From: Methanosarcinales archaeon
GTDB taxonomy: Archaea > Halobacteriota > Methanosarcinia > Methanosarcinales > Methanogasteraceae
Direction of reading: 5' to 3'
DNA length: 44,591 nt
NCBI GenBank assembly: GCA_004211975.1
Contig: RXIK01000126.1
Coordinates: 1-44,591, forward strand
Below the pieces are notes generated by a model that saw only the letters and a program-made list of their open reading frames with translations, ran no database searches and had not been told where the DNA came from. The position numbers were made by a program, and so were the translations under genes. Positions 1 through 28,273 of this stretch are shown here, in pieces. Each line of letters opens with the position of its first letter. Within the stretch, counting starts at the first letter, position 1.

Positions 1-141
1 GGATTATACGTATGCCCAGATAAGGGCGTATCCATAAATGCAGATGTGAACGGCGTCGCAAACATCAAACAGAATAATAACTGTGAGCCTCCGGGTAGCA
101 GTAACTGGGCTATGGCGAGCCCATTGCGGGTGTCAGCATGA
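1..141 (+). pseudogene. tnpB: C-terminal end of a TnpB-like (IS200/IS605 family) protein, cut by the window start
   Basis: Frame 1 reads GLYVCPDKGVSINADVNGVANIKQNNNCEPPGSSNWAMASPLRVSA*, with the NADVNGxxNI RuvC-III/zinc-ribbon tail typical of TnpB. The 5' part is outside the window. Confidence 0.75.
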
Positions 142-198
142 AAGTGGTAACGCACTACACAAAGATTCCTCGCTCTTCAGAGCGGGGAGCACGTCAAA
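142..198 (+). mobile_element. Right end of IS605-type element / omegaRNA 3' region with terminal hairpin
   Basis: Immediately downstream of the tnpB stop. Hairpin CCTCGCTCT-TC-AGAGCGGGG (168-187), then AGCACGTCAAA, resembling IS605 right ends. Confidence 0.5.
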
Positions 199-596
199 GG
201 TTGGATAAGGTTGAACGAGTAGGGATGGGCATACACAAGATGAAGGAAACTATGGCTCTGGCAGGTTTAAAAGAACCTGTGTTTGAGACGGATTGTTTTT
301 TCAGAGCGATATTTTTCAGACCGACGAGAGGCGATATTTTTCCAACCCCGCTTAAGGTCGGAGAAAAGGTCGGAGAAAAGGTCGGAGAAAAGGTCGGAGA
401 AAAAATAACTGCAAACCAGCAGAAGATCATTGATTCCATTCTACAAGAGCCAACCATTTCCGCAAAGGAATTATCCGGATTAGTAGGTATTTCCCAGAGA
501 AAAATCGAAGACAACATCGCCAAACTAAAAAAAATGGGGTTAATCAGGCGCATCGGTCCGGCGAGAGGTGGGCACTGGGAGATAGGTGGCAAATGA
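199..596 (+). pseudogene. 5'-truncated AlbA/HATPase_c_4-type ATP-binding wHTH protein (C-terminal part only)
   Basis: VERVGMGIHKMKETMALAGLKEPVFE...FFRxIFFRP is the end of the ATPase domain, followed by a (VGEK)n linker and wHTH. The N-terminal AlbA and most of the ATPase domain are absent. The called ORF 138-596 starts inside the IS end. Confidence 0.65.
354..401 (+). repeat. Four tandem 12-bp repeats (AAGGTCGGAGAA) encoding (K)VGEKVGEKVGEKVGEK
   Basis: Read directly from the sequence. Confidence 0.95.
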
Positions 597-1279
597 CGGG
601 GGATGCACCGACTCACTACAGTTACAGGCTTTCTGAAGAAGAAAATCTTTTCAGGTTCTACTTTAGCATATTCGAACGATTGATTAAAAAGACCGATCTA
701 CCCTTTGCGTTGAGGGCAGATGGCTTTGCCACCGATGATCAACCCCAGCTTACTGCGATACGGGATGCACTGGCGAATCTTCTGATACATTCCGACTACT
801 TCAGTCCGGTGAAACCAAGGATAAGGGTCTTCATTGACCGGATTGAGTTCCTGAACCCGAATAGCCTGCCAAAGGACCTTGAATCCATTATACGAGAAGA
901 TTTCACTATGCCAAGAAACCCCATTGTCACAAAGATATTCAGGGTCATAAAACTGGCTGAGAATGCGGGATCAGGCATTGATAAAATGATCAATGGCTGG
1001 AAAGCCTATTACGAGAACGTGCCTGCGATATCAGGTGGCATCGATTACTATAAGATAACGTTTCCGTTAGTCAAGGGCACGGGAGTTTCGGAGAAAACTT
1101 CGGAGAAAATCATTCTGCTTATCAAAGAAAATCCATCGATCAGTGCAAAAGAGATTGCAGAAAAGCTCGGCGTATCGCCACGGGCAATTGAGATGCAGAT
1201 TGCGAAATTGAAAAAGAAGAACATTATTATACGAATCGGTCCGGCAAAGAGTGGGCAATGGGCGGTGGTCGACAAATGA
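593..1279 (+). pseudogene. Second AlbA/HATPase_c_4 wHTH paralogue, 5'-truncated
   Basis: YSYRLSEEENLFRFYFSIFERL...AIRDALANLLIHSDYFSPVKPRIRVFIDRIEFLNPNSLP...ENAGSGIDKM...SEKTSEKI...wHTH. Lacks the N-terminal AlbA/Schlafen-type domain. Confidence 0.65.
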
Positions 1280-1782
1280 AGGGGCAGGCGGTCTTCAAGC
1301 ACTGGTTCGTCGATTTCGAGTTTCCGAACGAGAATGGCAAGCCGCACATATTCAGCGGCGGCGAGATGGTGGATCCAGAGCTGGGGGCGGTGCCGGATGG
1401 GTGGGAAGTTATTTCGATTGGTGATGTCGTGAAAATAGTGGGTGGTGGTACCCCTCGTACGAATAATCCTGCATTTTTGGAGGGGGGAATACATCGCTGG
1501 ACACGCGTAAATCTTGAGACCATTAAGGGACGCGCTTGTGAGACTACGTTTCAGGAAATTTGCAAGAAGAATTTTAGACCCATTAAGATTGCTGTACCGA
1601 CACCTGAAATACTAACTCGCTTCGAAAAAACCGTTGGGCGTTTATTTAAACAAATCGTGGCAAATGAGTGGGAATCCCGCGCCCTAACATCAATCCGCGA
1701 TGCCTTCCTCCTAAAATTGATGTCAGGAGAGATTCGGGTAAATCATAAAAATGGGGGATATACAAATGAGATTCTGGGTTAA
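1258..1782 (+). pseudogene. hsdS: Type I restriction specificity subunit HsdS remnant (central conserved region, TRD2 with internal deletion, C-terminal conserved region)
   Basis: AVFKHWFVDFEFPNENGKPHIFSGGEMVDPELGAVPDGWEV...GGGTPRTNNP then ...PTPEILTRFEKTVGRLFKQI...IRDAFLLKLMSGEIRV. TRD1 and part of TRD2 are missing. Confidence 0.75.
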
Positions 1783-2299
1783 AGTGGGTCTTTTTCTCAG
1801 TTCTTATTTTCCACTATTTTTAATATTGGCTATTAAAAATTGGTTTAATTGTTATATGACGTTATTTCTTATTATAGTGAGCACATATAGCCTTGTGTGG
1901 GTGTGTATAATCAGCATCTCAAAGAAATGGACCGTAGAATCGTATAACGTTCTAAAAGTCGAAAACAGAACTCAGGAATCTTTAAACTATCTTATCCCAT
2001 ATATCATTTCATTCATCGGATTTGATTTGAATAAATGGCAGGATTGGGGTGCCCTTACCATCCTTCTGGCGATACTTTTTGTAGTTTATCTGAATTCCGA
2101 CCTATTATATGTCAATCCAATGTTATTATTTTTTAAATACAAAATATACAAGATTGAAGTATGTAAGCCGATAATAGGGTGTGAAGATACGAGAAGCGAA
2201 ATTCTAATAATAACAAATAGGAAAAACTATATTAAGAGAGATGACCGAATAACTGTAAAAGACATAGACCGGGGTATAGTCTTAGAGGCGATTGAATGA
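1766..2299 (+). CDS. kwaA: KwaA-like membrane protein of a Kiwa anti-phage system
   Basis: Small protein with several hydrophobic segments (FLSSYFPLFLILAI, TLFLIIVSTYSLVWVCII, SLNYLIPYIISFIGF, LTILLAILFVVYLNSDLLYVNPMLLFFKYKIYKIEV), followed directly by a KwaB-like gene (4-nt ATGA overlap at 2296). Preferred start is ATG 1766 behind GGGGGAT. Confidence 0.7.
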   Translation: MRFWVKVGLFLSSYFPLFLILAIKNWFNCYMTLFLIIVSTYSLVWVCIISISKKWTVESYNVLKVENRTQESLNYLIPYIISFIGFDLNKWQDWGALTILLAILFVVYLNSDLLYVNPMLLFFKYKIYKIEVCKPIIGCEDTRSEILIITNRKNYIKRDDRITVKDIDRGIVLEAIE

Positions 2300-3240
2300 T
2301 GAACGAAATAGTAACCTATCTGAAAGGAGCAGAACCAAGAAATGTAAAACTATACTTCGTAGAGCGGAATAAAAACCAAATAACAAAAGAAATTAGTTAT
2401 AATACATTAAAGACTACGATAACCACAGATATAGGAAGCGAGCTTATAGATGCGGGATATCAACAGGTTGTATCCATATTAAATAAGGATCCAGAATGCA
2501 TCGAATACGGAGTTATACCCTATTCGGATAGGGTTCATGTGGAAAAAATAAACAAAAACGAGGTTCCCTATTTATCTCAACTGCTAACAGAAGTTTCAAA
2601 CTCCGCCCTTGAAGTTTTCGAAGATAACAGAACTAATAAGATCTTTGGATATATTGTAAAAATAGAAAATGGAAACAATGCCCTATTTTTATTCAGGAAA
2701 TACACCCCGAAAAAACTGTTAGAAAAGGGAAAACTCTCAATGATAGTCAACGAAGGAAGTTTTCAAAGATTGAATTATAAAATAATGGCGATAGATGAGG
2801 TCTATGATGCTGCACTTCTTTTAAAAGAAGGAAATGACCTTTCACAATTGCAGGTTTTCATTTTCAACAGATCAAAATTTGAGTCTATGTTTAGCTTTGT
2901 TGCTTTTTATGAGAAAGAAGTGGATGGCAGAAAGAAAGAAATCAACGACAAGAATTTGTTAAATGATATTGATGTGTTTATCGATTTCTGCAAAAATGAT
3001 AGTCGAATGATTAAGAAATTTGCACGAATTCTTAAAAATGGTGAATTCAGTAAAATGAGTAAGAACAACATAAAAGATGTTGCAGATGAATACAAGTTAG
3101 ATTTAGAATTTGATGACAGTGGGAAAATCGTGCTAAATAAAGACAACATCTGGACAATCCTTCGAATTTTAGATGACGATTACGTACGTTCTGAGATTAC
3201 TGATACTAAATATGAGGCACGTTCCAAGGTGAAAAAATGA
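2296..3240 (+). CDS. kwaB: KwaB-like protein (DUF4868 family) of a Kiwa anti-phage system
   Basis: 314 aa with DUF4868-like body (FGYIVKIENGNNALFLFRKYTPKKLLEKGKLSMIVNEGSFQRL...FDAALLL-like segment...QVFIFNRSKFESMFSFVAFYEKEV). Partner order and sizes match KwaA-KwaB. Confidence 0.7.
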   Translation: MMNEIVTYLKGAEPRNVKLYFVERNKNQITKEISYNTLKTTITTDIGSELIDAGYQQVVSILNKDPECIEYGVIPYSDRVHVEKINKNEVPYLSQLLTEVSNSALEVFEDNRTNKIFGYIVKIENGNNALFLFRKYTPKKLLEKGKLSMIVNEGSFQRLNYKIMAIDEVYDAALLLKEGNDLSQLQVFIFNRSKFESMFSFVAFYEKEVDGRKKEINDKNLLNDIDVFIDFCKNDSRMIKKFARILKNGEFSKMSKNNIKDVADEYKLDLEFDDSGKIVLNKDNIWTILRILDDDYVRSEITDTKYEARSKVKK

Positions 3241-3319: not shown

Positions 3320-4393
3320 ATGCCCAACACCGAAAGACAACTAACCTTAACCATCGGCGGTCCGGATGTCGAGGACGGAAAAATTCCTCTTGCAGCACTT
3401 GCCGGTAAACTAAACGCACTCCAGAAAGCACTCTTCAACGTGGCGCTGGCACGGTCGGGAGGTCCGGTAGCGCAGCGTGGCAACTGGTCAAAGCGCATCA
3501 TTGCATCATGTGAATTACTATTCTGCGAATCTCGCAAAGGCAGTCTTGCCGTGGTAGCAGAGATCCCGCCGCCGTCATCGGTGCAGACCACACTTGGGGG
3601 AAAGAAAGACGATGAAGGATTGCATGCGCTCGATACGTTGCGGCAGGTAACGGTATCTATCAGTGCGGGCGATAGTTCAAATCTTGTCTCGATCATGCCG
3701 GATGGTGGGGCGCGTCTTCGTGCTCTAAAGTCCATTGAAGCGCTTTGTCCCCGTGATACTGACGGTTTCTGGGTATCTCTGGGAAATGGGGATGGATTGC
3801 CTTATGCTCGCCTTACATCCGAATCTCGAAGCTTCATTCAACATATATTCGAAGATGATGATGTTATTGAGGTCCAAACCATAAGCGGAGATCTTGTGGA
3901 GATCAGGGTGCTTGCAGGTAGGCGTCATATCGTTATCCGCCACCAACAGCGGGAAATTGTGTGTTATTACCCTACCGAGATGGAGGAAACTATTACACAA
4001 CTCGTTGCTGGTTCTATTGTCGAAGTTAAAGGGCGGGCACAGTTGGGTGATGACGGGGTGGTTCGCCAGATCGACGAAGTGCTGGATGTCTCAACAATAG
4101 ACCTCTCATCATTCCGAACATCCTCGTTCCATTTCAACGACGGACGTTTCATTCTCAAGGACCCCGTAATCTGCTCTCCGGAGTATCGCAATAACCTGTG
4201 GGTGTATGAGTGCCCACGCTATGGATTACATGCGTTTTCAGAGGATCGGCAGGAAGCGCTGCGCCAGCTTGGGGAAGAGTTCGCTTTCCTATACGAGGGT
4301 CTAATAAATGAACCTGATGAGAATCTGACACCAGATGCAATTGAACTTCGTGATCTACTCAAGGCAGATTCTGTCAGAGTCGAGGAGATCTAA
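3320..4393 (+). CDS. Uncharacterised protein, upstream partner of a HicA-like protein
   Basis: 357-aa ORF. Its C-terminal part (NNLWVYECPRYGLHAFSEDRQEALRQLGEEFAFLYEG) resembles a HicB-like segment. Stop is 2 nt from the next ATG. Confidence 0.6.
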   Translation: MPNTERQLTLTIGGPDVEDGKIPLAALAGKLNALQKALFNVALARSGGPVAQRGNWSKRIIASCELLFCESRKGSLAVVAEIPPPSSVQTTLGGKKDDEGLHALDTLRQVTVSISAGDSSNLVSIMPDGGARLRALKSIEALCPRDTDGFWVSLGNGDGLPYARLTSESRSFIQHIFEDDDVIEVQTISGDLVEIRVLAGRRHIVIRHQQREIVCYYPTEMEETITQLVAGSIVEVKGRAQLGDDGVVRQIDEVLDVSTIDLSSFRTSSFHFNDGRFILKDPVICSPEYRNNLWVYECPRYGLHAFSEDRQEALRQLGEEFAFLYEGLINEPDENLTPDAIELRDLLKADSVRVEEI

Positions 4394-4395
4394 AA

Positions 4396-4704
4396 ATGGC
4401 TGTTTATCACACATCAAAATTCATTGCCGCAATCAAGAGGAAGGGTTTTGTTCCAGATAAGACTCACCACAACATGTTCTGGTACTACCTTGATGGTAAA
4501 AAGACATCGGTTCGCACCCGCACAAGTCATGGGGAGAAGGAATTCAATGACGGACTGATGGCTGAACGGCGCAAACAGATTGGACTTGCCAGTAAAGAGC
4601 AAATGCTTGATTTAATCGAATGCCCACTCTCCGCAGACGATTTGCAGCAAATTCTCATCGAAAGTGGGCGCATTCGAGAACCAGAGCCAAAATTGAAGGA
4701 TTGA
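4396..4704 (+). CDS. HicA-like small protein (putative mRNA interferase fold)
   Basis: IAAIKRKGFVPDKTHHNMFWYYLDGKKTSVRTRTSHGEKEFNDGLMAERRKQIGL has the HicA layout (KGF...[ST]HH...DG+...V..SHG....L....+QIGL). Confidence 0.55.
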   Translation: MAVYHTSKFIAAIKRKGFVPDKTHHNMFWYYLDGKKTSVRTRTSHGEKEFNDGLMAERRKQIGLASKEQMLDLIECPLSADDLQQILIESGRIREPEPKLKD

Positions 4705-9658: not shown

Positions 9659-10090
9659 AGTATTTATAAGATTACAATTGTTTATAAAACTTTTGGGTCA
9701 GGGATTAAATTTCGCCTAACTTTATTATATCCAAACTCGAGTTCGCATATTATTCCACACAGGCATTACATCTAAGTTTACTTCGCATATATACCCCTTC
9801 AGTTGAACATTCTCACTCATTTTTCACAACCCGAACTTTGTAATAGATGCGGATGCACAAATAACTCGCGCATTTTTTGCAATGATGCATAACGTCGTGC
9901 AAATAAAAACGACAGATGTCCCGGATTTCTCTCTCATCCTCGCTACATGACCCAAGGCAACTCACAAATAATAATTTACCCACCACCAGTTTTACATATT
10001 GATCTCTTGATCGAGTGACCGCGGATAGAACTACTTGTATCCTGTGTATCTGAATTTCAGTGGAATTAAAGAGCAATTGTTATTACAGCA

Positions 10091-24025: not shown

Positions 24026-27000
24026 TTACGCACCGACCACGATCTTTCCGCCCCGCACTCCGGCACAGACCTCAGGGTCGTAGTATGAGTATGCCCGGCT
24101 GTCAGGTATGATCGCCTTTACCGGGAAGAGCGCCCGCATCTCCACATTAAACGAGAGTTCTGTTCCCCGTGGTAGGTCAAGCACGTAGACAATGACTTTT
24201 CTGCCCGCAATTTCGTAGCGCATGATTGTGCCATCAGCAACCAGCCTGTTCAGACTCCCTGTGACCGGCGCAAATCCGGTTGGCACAGCAACATCCACAA
24301 TCATCATGCCCGTGGAATCGGCAGCTCCCGTGTAGCTGACCCGCGTGTGCGCGGTCACAATGTCATTTACCGCGACATCTGTTGCATCATAGGTAATATC
24401 CAGTTGCAGGTCAGATGCCGGCGCAATCTCCGGAAGTATCATGTTGAATCGCTTTACCAGCTGATAATTCACTTCTCCGGTTCCGGTGAGTGTAAGCTGC
24501 ACCTCAACCGCACCATCAGGCACCCGGACGGTCTGAAGCACATCAAAGTTCCCTGCATCAATTCCAATCTCCTTGATAGTGGCGCCATCAGCAGATACTA
24601 CTACAGTGGCGTTGATATCTCTGCCCTGCATTGTTGCCGCGGTCATCAGTGCTTTTAGTGCCATAACCGTATCCTGTGTCGATGAAAATCCACCAAGCGA
24701 GTTTCGCTGGGACGCTATCCATTTGATGGCATCGTTTGCAAGCGGATGTTTTGCATCGATCAGGGCAAGCGCTGCGTAAGCCGTGATCTCGATGTTCTTG
24801 CTCGAAGGCGGGTGCTCGTACCTGAACAGACCTGGATCAGTGCCAGATCCTGATCCCGATTCACTAACGGGTGTTTCTCCCGGTCCCCAGTAGACTCCGT
24901 TTTCATCTTCCTTCGCAATCGCCACGAGCTTCTCAAGCGCTGCGTCCGCGTTCGGGCTTCCAAGTTTTCGGAGTGCAACAGAGCCTATCGCAAGCGAGTA
25001 AGGATCAGTCTGATTATCTAAGTTATCTTCGAGGTATGTTTGCACCTGTTTGAGGACGTGGGTTTTCACGTCCCCATATTCGGCGAGTGCAATTCCAACA
25101 AAGCTTGTGAGCGCATATCTACCCTCCATTCCGCCGATCATCTCCTCATGACAGATGAAACCAACCGACTCCCATGAGCCATCTGCACTCTGGCGGGCGC
25201 AGATCCAGTCAGACGCCTCTGCAAGAACCGAGTCGTCGATGGAGGTTACGTCCCGTGCGCTTGAAAATGAGTTCAGGACAAACGCAGTGAGCCAGAGGCT
25301 GCCACTCTCGCCCCCACTCTCGCCAAATGCGGAGAACGAGCCGTCGTTGTGCCTGAATGTGAGCTGGCGCTGATAGCCAGTTGTGATAAAGAGTTCGGCT
25401 TTTGCCTGAATCTCGGGGTTGGTCTGGTCAGTTGCCTTGAGATAACGAAGGATCTCAACATCGGGTGCAAACATGATCATATTCTGTTCGCCACAACCAT
25501 ACGGCATATCAAGGAGGCTATCTATGCCGTTTATTGTCTGTGCAACTATGCTTGGCGTAAAACTAACCAGAACAACCCCGGAATCAGGCACAATTCCCTG
25601 GGGAAGCGCGGCATCAAGCGTGGTGCTGCCCGCTTCCAGATTTCCGTTCTCAACGATCTCCTGCCTCGTCCCCTCTGCCTCAACGATGATGTTCTTTTTC
25701 ACGGCATCAGCCATCTTCTCAGTCTGTGCTGTGATTTCTATGGCATGGGTGCCGATTTTTGTTGGTGTAATCGTGAAACTAACGTCTTCAACGCTGTTTG
25801 CACCAATCAACACGCTTACCACATCATCGCCAATGCTATTGAACCAGCCACTGGAAGAGAGTGTTAATCTAACATCCTGCGGCGTATCGAGGTAGTTGTA
25901 GACCTGCACCTGGACAGGGAATATTTCTCCGCGGGTAACTGCGTATGGGAGATCAGGATCAAGGAAGAACTCCTGGAATACAGTGAGGCTGTCCTCTGAT
26001 ATCCCGATGCCCGCATCTGATGACGAGACCGCATGAAGCCGCCACGTCGTGATGCTGTCCGGTGTGGTGAGATCGATGTATGTACGACCACTTTCGTCGG
26101 TGAGGAGGTCCGGCAGCCAGAGCCATGTCTCCGGGAATAACTGGCGCACGCGCTTGACCAATGCGAGTTCGCCAGTGTCTGCCGTGTTTGGTGCAGTACC
26201 GGGCACAGGTTCCCCCGTCCCGTCCACCGCCGATGCCCCGTCCAAACTTTCCTCAACCGCCACGTCCATCGCAAACACTTCCCTGTTTGCGCCCCCTTTC
26301 CACTTCCCCACAGCACCCGGAACCTGCATTTCCGACTCAGGCGTCTTCGGAATCTTAAACGACGACGATGCGAGCACTTGCATGCCTGCATCATCCAGAA
26401 TCTCGTGCGTTCCGATACGCCGGTCATAATAGCCATATTCCGGATGGATCTCGATCTGAGGTTCCATGAACCGCTTTTCCAGCTCGTTAAAAACCTGCTT
26501 GAGGTTGAGCCTGCCAGCACTCAGCGCATAGACCGATTCGTCAACGATTGCGATGCCGATCATTGACTTGTCCCCTGCATCAAAGGTAACTCGCACAGAG
26601 TCGCCGGGAGACACGGTCTCGCTGTCAAAATCCGACGTTAGATTGACGCTTGTATCAAAACAAACGTCAAACGGTAAGACGTCGGCAGAGACCTCACAGT
26701 TCGGGTTGATCATATACGCCACGATCTTTGCGGATGGACCCATCTGTGGCGTGACCCGAACCATAATCTCTGATCGCTCACCAGTGCCCGAGTACACGGT
26801 TCTACCGTTCGCGTAGACATCATAAAACACCGTGCCCGGGTTGGTCGAGCGCACGGCAAAGGTGATCATGTCGCCGACATGAGGCACACCCTCGCTCGTC
26901 TGTGCGATGTGTATAAAGCTGGCACCAGGGGAGTATGCAGCATTAAGATCCACACACTGCCACACGGTTGAGCCGCTTGCATCATGGCACGTTGCCTCGA

Positions 27001-28273
27001 TGAGGGCGCCCGTGCAATTCTCAGGGATGGTGTAACTCACAGTAGCAACCCCATTTTCAGTTGAAACAACATCATCGCGCTCGGTTTCAGTGTAACCATC
27101 CTGACGGAACGTGGTTCTCACATCAACGTCCGAATTAATCGGGTTTCCGTCAGGGTCGTCTGTCACGACCAGCACCTCAAACGGAAGTCCTGGCTTCACG
27201 ATGCTTGATTCCGGGATCAGCTGGAGAATCACGTCAGACTCCACAATTTTCAGGAGTTCTGTCATGGTCTCTGTGTGATTTCCCGTGTCTGTGACTGAAA
27301 TGTTCAGCATGAGGCTGCCCTGCCCGCCTGCACCGTACGTCCCTGCGATCCACTCGACGGCTGGTAGCTCGAACTCGGCAGAGCCGTTCTTAAGAATAGC
27401 GCTGTATGTGGCATAGGTTTCCCAGGTGCCAACATACTTTGACGCCTCGATCTTAAGAGAACCCTCAACCGGTTTTCCGAAGAAGTAGTTCGCAGAGACT
27501 GTGCCTGTGATCAGGTCAGAGACAAGGAACCAGTCTTTCCCCATATCCGGCTTGATCCCAAACTTGGGGATCACGTAGCGCTCGACCAGAATATCCAGAA
27601 CCGCCTTTGATTCGCCAGAGACCGCTTTGATCTTCCATGTTCCAAGATTTGGTTCGGTTGATAATGGCAGATCAAACGTGGCTACGCCGAAATCGTTCGT
27701 GCCAAGCGTCTCCCGAAAGACTTTGATCCCTTTTGTGTCGGCAATCTCCAGTTCCACGGAATCTGCAAGTGGTATGAGGTTATTGTTCAGGAGGAGGAGT
27801 CTGCCATGGATCATCTGTCCGGGCTTGTAGATTGGCTTGTCAGTCTCGATAAATAGGGGGTTGCTCTTCAAAACCCTGACTGTTGCAGTGTATGACTCAC
27901 CAGTACCAACAGGCTCTGCAACCAGCGAATACGTGCCTTCATCGATTAGAGGAACATCGAATCGTGCGACCGAGTGCCCGGATTCACCGGTTGATGCGCG
28001 AACGAGAGAAACTTTCGTATTGTTACTATCCAGAAGCGCGCACTCAATTTGTCGTTTGGCAGGGATGTGTTCGTCACCTGTAAACGCAGACATGCTAATC
28101 GAACTCTCACTTCCGACAAAGAGTGTCTTTGGAGCAAGTATCAAGTAATCGGCAGCCTCAGCAGGCGTATCATTGCCCCTGTCAGAGAGGGTGCCGGTCT
28201 CGATGCAGCCTGACACGACAAGCACTGCGATGCATGTCAGTGACAGTATGCCATATACTAATGCTTTTCTCAT
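24026..28273 (-). CDS. Alpha-2-macroglobulin / thioester-containing lipoprotein
   Basis: 1415 aa. Lipobox VLVVSGC; MG domains (FIETDKPIYKPGQMIHGRLLLLN); RQLFPETWLWLPDLLTDESGRTYIDLTTPDSITTWRLHAVS; thioester MPYGCGEQNMIMFAP; alpha-6/6 TED domain; C-terminal receptor-binding-like domain. Confidence 0.95.
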   Translation of the reverse strand: MRKALVYGILSLTCIAVLVVSGCIETGTLSDRGNDTPAEAADYLILAPKTLFVGSESSISMSAFTGDEHIPAKRQIECALLDSNNTKVSLVRASTGESGHSVARFDVPLIDEGTYSLVAEPVGTGESYTATVRVLKSNPLFIETDKPIYKPGQMIHGRLLLLNNNLIPLADSVELEIADTKGIKVFRETLGTNDFGVATFDLPLSTEPNLGTWKIKAVSGESKAVLDILVERYVIPKFGIKPDMGKDWFLVSDLITGTVSANYFFGKPVEGSLKIEASKYVGTWETYATYSAILKNGSAEFELPAVEWIAGTYGAGGQGSLMLNISVTDTGNHTETMTELLKIVESDVILQLIPESSIVKPGLPFEVLVVTDDPDGNPINSDVDVRTTFRQDGYTETERDDVVSTENGVATVSYTIPENCTGALIEATCHDASGSTVWQCVDLNAAYSPGASFIHIAQTSEGVPHVGDMITFAVRSTNPGTVFYDVYANGRTVYSGTGERSEIMVRVTPQMGPSAKIVAYMINPNCEVSADVLPFDVCFDTSVNLTSDFDSETVSPGDSVRVTFDAGDKSMIGIAIVDESVYALSAGRLNLKQVFNELEKRFMEPQIEIHPEYGYYDRRIGTHEILDDAGMQVLASSSFKIPKTPESEMQVPGAVGKWKGGANREVFAMDVAVEESLDGASAVDGTGEPVPGTAPNTADTGELALVKRVRQLFPETWLWLPDLLTDESGRTYIDLTTPDSITTWRLHAVSSSDAGIGISEDSLTVFQEFFLDPDLPYAVTRGEIFPVQVQVYNYLDTPQDVRLTLSSSGWFNSIGDDVVSVLIGANSVEDVSFTITPTKIGTHAIEITAQTEKMADAVKKNIIVEAEGTRQEIVENGNLEAGSTTLDAALPQGIVPDSGVVLVSFTPSIVAQTINGIDSLLDMPYGCGEQNMIMFAPDVEILRYLKATDQTNPEIQAKAELFITTGYQRQLTFRHNDGSFSAFGESGGESGSLWLTAFVLNSFSSARDVTSIDDSVLAEASDWICARQSADGSWESVGFICHEEMIGGMEGRYALTSFVGIALAEYGDVKTHVLKQVQTYLEDNLDNQTDPYSLAIGSVALRKLGSPNADAALEKLVAIAKEDENGVYWGPGETPVSESGSGSGTDPGLFRYEHPPSSKNIEITAYAALALIDAKHPLANDAIKWIASQRNSLGGFSSTQDTVMALKALMTAATMQGRDINATVVVSADGATIKEIGIDAGNFDVLQTVRVPDGAVEVQLTLTGTGEVNYQLVKRFNMILPEIAPASDLQLDITYDATDVAVNDIVTAHTRVSYTGAADSTGMMIVDVAVPTGFAPVTGSLNRLVADGTIMRYEIAGRKVIVYVLDLPRGTELSFNVEMRALFPVKAIIPDSRAYSYYDPEVCAGVRGGKIVVGA

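Follow-up and report, generated by a model that had tools for sequence, protein, structure and literature searches.

The Kiwa system (KwaA-KwaB) reportedly goes back to Doron 2018. In PMC12904381, which cites Zhang 2025 for Kiwa (PDB: 9mrg, 9mrx, 9nyu), bacterial KwaA is described as forming tetramers in the membrane that hold KwaB dimers. According to the same source, these tetramers gather where the phage injects its DNA, and KwaB, once bound to that DNA, halts replication and late transcription but does not cut it (PMC12904381). Type I restriction-modification (RM) operons are known to host other defence systems, namely PrrC (EcoprrI; PMC12707154), TgvAB (PMC11411939), and DarTG2, the last of which lies in the slot between hsdS and hsdR (PMC12255303). 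These apparently share with the locus described here their nesting in a type I RM operon, whereas their proteins and mechanisms are unrelated to Kiwa. Archaeal KwaB-like genes are also known, as RefSeq already labels a gene on a plasmid of Halobacterium sp. BOL4-2 as KwaB-like. On that plasmid (L050), kwaA-kwaB sit within a methylation-based defence cluster, as they do here; however, the cluster is BREX-5 rather than type I RM, and its Kiwa belongs to a separate lineage. Our literature search, which was thin on subscription journals, identified no paper describing Kiwa in the hsdS-hsdR slot or in BREX. Since other defence systems have already been described from this slot, Kiwa there adds to a known kind of arrangement; what is new, and worth following, is the recurrent nesting of Kiwa in archaeal type I RM and BREX clusters.

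We analyzed 44,591 nucleotides of a Methanosarcinales archaeon (contig RXIK01000126.1), hereafter the window. The window very probably carries a divergent but intact archaeal Kiwa, presumably antiviral, which arrived or descended as a module of a type I RM operon; that operon has since decayed. Like described Kiwa systems, it has two genes in the same order with the same folds and tight frame spacing, a multi-helix membrane KwaA, and a DUF4868 KwaB. It differs in being 12-25% identical to the bacterial proteins sampled, in its apparent nesting within the remains of a type I RM operon, and in having an archaeal host without RecBCD. We know of no archaeon with RecBCD. The cooperation of RecBCD with Kiwa reported for E. 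coli, in a preprint as cited in PMC11514479, therefore cannot apply to the Kiwa of the window, which weighs against a working Kiwa here.

The kwaA and kwaB genes

1766..2299, plus strand: kwaA, membrane subunit of Kiwa (PADLOC PDLC00215; PDB 9mrg and 9mrx_A)
2296..3240, plus strand: kwaB, DUF4868/KwaB effector subunit (PF16162, PADLOC, profile of archaeal relatives, fold match 9nyu_A)

The kwaA frame runs from an ATG at 1766 to a stop codon at 2297-2299 (177 aa); an alternative ATG lies upstream at 1751, and the starts of its relatives align with 1766. The kwaB frame follows on the same strand with a 4-base ATGA overlap, from an ATG at 2296 (or 2299) to a stop codon at 3238-3240 (314 aa). Both frames are full length without an internal stop, and ribosome-binding-like stretches (GGGGGAT and GAGGCG) precede the starts of kwaA and kwaB, respectively. 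The GC content of kwaAB is 0.33, compared with 0.48 for the window.

The KwaA sequence matched 14 KwaA models in PADLOC, with PDLC00215 the best (E = 9e-27), and a sequence search of the PDB identified the solved KwaA 9mrg (2.9e-10). KwaB scored 122.7 bits against Pfam PF16162, for which the cut-off is 26.3. Alignment profiles of archaeal relatives (16-17 sequences) matched KwaA only (7e-28) or KwaB only (6e-21) in the PDB. The AlphaFold model of KwaA (pLDDT 80.7) combines a beta domain with helices at residues 3-24, 29-51, 69-84, and 91-111, and in the PDB the solved KwaA (9mrx_A) was the sole protein that it matched at E ≤ 0.001 (E 1.3e-10, TM 0.79). At the same threshold, the KwaB model (pLDDT 85.7) matched the KwaB entries 9nyu, 9mrx, and 9mtn alone; the best match, 9nyu_A, is a moderate overlay (E 2.8e-11, TM 0.60, rmsd 6.7). 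Because of these profile scores and the matches solely to solved Kiwa structures, the resemblance to Kiwa is not due to chance, and family profiles together with matches of the predicted structures confirm the pair as KwaA and KwaB.

Both proteins fall below the NCBIfam equivalog cut-offs (74.6 vs 100 bits for KwaA, 70.2 vs 200 bits for KwaB), which are naming thresholds for close functional equivalents rather than a defining trait of Kiwa. No other family was matched, and the scores mark a divergent member of Kiwa, not an outsider; KwaB aligned with 12-20% identity to sampled bacterial KwaB. The initial annotation had read the locus from its letters as an AT-rich, sequence-divergent Kiwa, with a multi-TM protein overlapping by ATGA a 314-aa DUF4868/KwaB-like protein, and this description held for both genes in the profile and structure searches.

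Remnants of a type I RM operon

1..140, plus strand: what looks like the C-terminal end of a TnpB-like transposase gene, at the edge of the contig (from reading the sequence; SINADVNGVANIKQ-like end)
138..596, plus strand: remnant ORF with a winged-helix-like segment at its end, resembling the end of the next ORF (ORF list)
593..1279, plus strand: accessory ATPase gene remnant, RecG C-terminal-like HATPase_c_4 plus winged HTH (PF13749, 6e-13)
1258..1782, plus strand: decayed hsdS, 174 aa, frame open into the start of kwaA (PADLOC Specificity_I, 7e-39, two blocks)

The decayed type I RM gene that had been noted directly upstream of the pair is an HsdS with its target-recognition domains largely deleted. 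Residues 10-82 correspond to the central conserved block of type I specificity subunits and the rest to the C-terminal block. Of the two target-recognition domains, the first is gone and little remains of the second. The sequence is 52% identical over 73 aa to the HsdS of another archaeal genome with Kiwa (G065). In the Kiwa-bearing operon of G022, hsdM and hsdS likewise flank a PF13749 domain (L029 5690-7189), which suggests that the window holds the left part of a type I operon that decayed while the Kiwa within it stayed intact. The overlap of the hsdS remnant with kwaA is 17 bp, the same as in the intact hsdS-kwaA-kwaB-hsdR operon of G305, a genome from another archaeal family. Together with the nesting pattern in other archaea, this equality points to a remnant of a type I operon with a nested Kiwa. 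The earlier view of the RM gene as a decayed neighbour thus stands in refined form, as kwaAB appear to occupy the hsdS-hsdR slot in which Kiwa is found at many archaeal loci.

Only the 5' half of this slot is preserved, with no hsdR after kwaB, and neither HsdR nor HsdM was found in the window. Elsewhere in the source genome, a 5-kb contig (C53) encodes an intact HsdR of 1079 aa (L070 1317-4556, minus strand) that is about 50-55% identical to the HsdR of the Kiwa-bearing operons in G305 and G198; intact HsdM and HsdS were sought in the source genome without success, and the pieces found look broken. The pair would have originated as a module of an operon that now reads ATPase - hsdS - kwaA - kwaB, hsdR and hsdM being absent and hsdS gutted while Kiwa persisted.

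With the upstream operon decayed, a promoter may have been lost, and kwaAB could be open but unexpressed, on the way to the same fate as hsdS. The apparent transposase remnant at the contig edge, the lack of hsdR and hsdM in the window, and the absence of KwaB from the same-genus genomes searched would fit such a relic; however, both frames are full length, as the claim of an intact pair among decayed neighbours had it, the structural models are confident, and the ribosome-binding-like stretches are in place, and we consider this reading distinctly improbable beside that of an intact Kiwa.

Near-perfect 12-bp tandem units (AAGGTCGGAGAA) at 354-413, with the tandem repeat itself at 354-401, encode a KVGE repeat within the ORF at 138-596. 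Directly downstream of kwaB, the plus strand encodes a 357-aa protein of no known family (3320-4393), followed by a 102-aa protein that is weakly HicA-like (4396-4701; E = 0.065).

Kiwa loci in other archaea and in bacteria

We mapped type I genes at 18 archaeal KwaB loci, the window and 17 others. A type I restriction operon surrounds KwaB in nine, including the window and one decayed copy. The order hsdS-kwaA-kwaB was found in G022, G052, G058, G065, G179, G198, and G305, with hsdR coming next wherever the contig extends further, and in G132 a KwaB fragment lies beside RhuM-like genes and a truncated hsdR. The hsdS and kwaA genes overlap in 7 of 8 type I loci, and kwaB and hsdR overlap in G198 and G305. 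BREX clusters hold kwaAB at 4 of the 18 loci (G104, G164, G215, and G357); a large N6-methylase is present in G104 and G164, with PglZ confirmed in G164, and the haloarchaea G215 and G357 match an annotated BREX-5 cluster of a Halobacterium plasmid. Kiwa is thus nested in type I RM or BREX at 13 of the 18 loci, and no such cluster surrounds kwaAB at the other five (G240, G246, G362, G376, and G452). This context is not accidental. Random placement gives p = 6.8e-18 for adjacency to hsdS, a value that overstates the case, since defence genes tend to lie together and the loci are related; the conserved order, the overlaps, and the number of lineages make the better argument.

The bacterial loci sampled were few. 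In E. coli E24377A and LR-28, which represent one lineage, hsdM-hsdS-hsdR-kwaA-kwaB run in one direction; in Rhizobium etli, kwaAB adjoin a complete type I operon that is encoded on the other strand, and in Paenibacillus crassostreae, the KwaB gene lies a few kilobases from one. Type I genes were absent at the kwaAB loci of Microvirga, Emticicia, Klebsiella, the Nissle plasmid, Salmonella, and prophages.

The nesting is probably that of passive cargo, with the hsdS-hsdR junction and BREX serving as landing sites from which Kiwa is carried and expressed without a mechanistic link. PMC12255303 describes the slot as a potential hotspot where defence systems recombine, the AT content of the Kiwa genes exceeds that of their locus in 14 of 17 cases, free-standing Kiwa occurs elsewhere, and the slot of G065 also holds a GmrSD gene. 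The frame overlaps at the junctions of several loci, however, are more suggestive of joint expression and a long shared residence than of casual insertion. In a second reading, nested kwaAB would act as a backup that comes into play once the surrounding type I RM or BREX has been disabled by anti-restriction proteins, in the manner of PrrC; in the window, the RM system would be dead and the backup left alone. In favor of such coupling are the 13 nested archaeal loci, the co-directional E. coli arrangement, at least seven changes between the nested and free states on the tree described below, and the precedent of PrrC in EcoprrI, together with inhibition of both type I and BREX by Ocr (PMC12707154). 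Yet Kiwa is unnested at five archaeal loci and at most of the bacterial ones sampled (plasmids, prophages), which argues that it is independent of RM; the slot houses the unrelated DarTG2, TgvAB, and PrrC, as a simple insertion hotspot would; and Kiwa persists in the window without RM. We regard coupling as rather unlikely. Equally doubtful is its extension across Halobacteriota, by which Kiwa would be a recurrent, functionally coupled partner of type I RM and BREX. In that case it would be a backup at the membrane stage, able to work without RecBCD or bacterial triggers and, as in the window, to survive the loss of RM. Nesting reached in several Kiwa lineages suggests either a partnership or a shared landing site, and the choice is directly testable.

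The KwaB gene of G164 contains one in-frame TAG (L013 1681-1683; L030 about 9973-9975) and is then open to 349 aa; the genome is likely of the Methanosarcina family, and the codon may encode pyrrolysine or may be a mutation that disables the gene. The closest KwaB relative of the window (47%; G362, L031 8488-9968) is free of type I RM.

Phylogeny and transfer

In a tree of KwaA plus KwaB from 27 pairs, bacterial ones included, the window clusters with G362, G305, and G376 (100/99), and the other archaeal pairs cluster with Rhizobium, Microvirga, or enterobacterial pairs. A single archaeal Kiwa clade is rejected (AU p = 1e-64). Since archaeal Kiwa is polyphyletic and AT-rich, it was transferred repeatedly, and Kiwa has moved between the domains more than once. 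The window's own lineage is archaeal in the present sample, in which the bacteria are limited to plasmids and E. coli. Its nearest relatives are other Halobacteriota (59% identity for KwaA, 46-47% for KwaB), so that another archaeon is a likelier direct donor in the last transfer than a bacterium. Horizontal acquisition, as initially proposed, therefore remains the likely means of spread, with this refinement of its last step.

Possible mode of action

The same scheme as in bacteria is the best guess for the Kiwa of the window because the folds are conserved. By homology, a KwaA oligomer in the archaeal membrane would respond when a virus attaches or injects its DNA; KwaA would also keep KwaB dimers at the membrane, and these would bind the incoming viral DNA and block viral replication and late transcription without cleavage. 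On this basis we infer antiviral activity, a sensing step, DNA binding, and expression in the source archaeon. The locus extends Kiwa firmly into methane-metabolising archaea, in which RecBCD is absent, and makes it testable whether the block on incoming DNA needs bacterial recombination machinery.

Host genome and distribution

The source assembly (249 contigs, 87% complete) contains one copy of KwaB. The genome, from Halobacteriota, encodes McrA, and the contig carries archaeal-type genes for a DUF5814 helicase, an RNA 3'-phosphate cyclase, ThiD-ThiN, and a beta-CASP nuclease. Public genomes queried with KwaB alone gave no match; a 4-sequence alignment matched one Methanophagales MAG only, a genome of the same phylum. 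The host is thus archaeal, as the initial annotation had it, but an archaeal Kiwa is not new in itself, given the RefSeq entry. KwaB is present in about 3-5% of the Halobacteriota genomes searched. Neither viral contigs nor phage records gave a match; the viral contigs thus gave no sign that the window's Kiwa lineage is virus-borne. Neither a tRNA nor direct repeats were found at the region boundaries, and the TrmO gene downstream has only distant matches (30-45%) in same-genus genomes, so this flank cannot be anchored for an empty-site comparison with them. Farther along the contig, the minus strand at 24029-28273 encodes an alpha-2-macroglobulin-like protein of 1415 aa that has bait region, thioester, and receptor domains, which is to our knowledge unusual for archaea.
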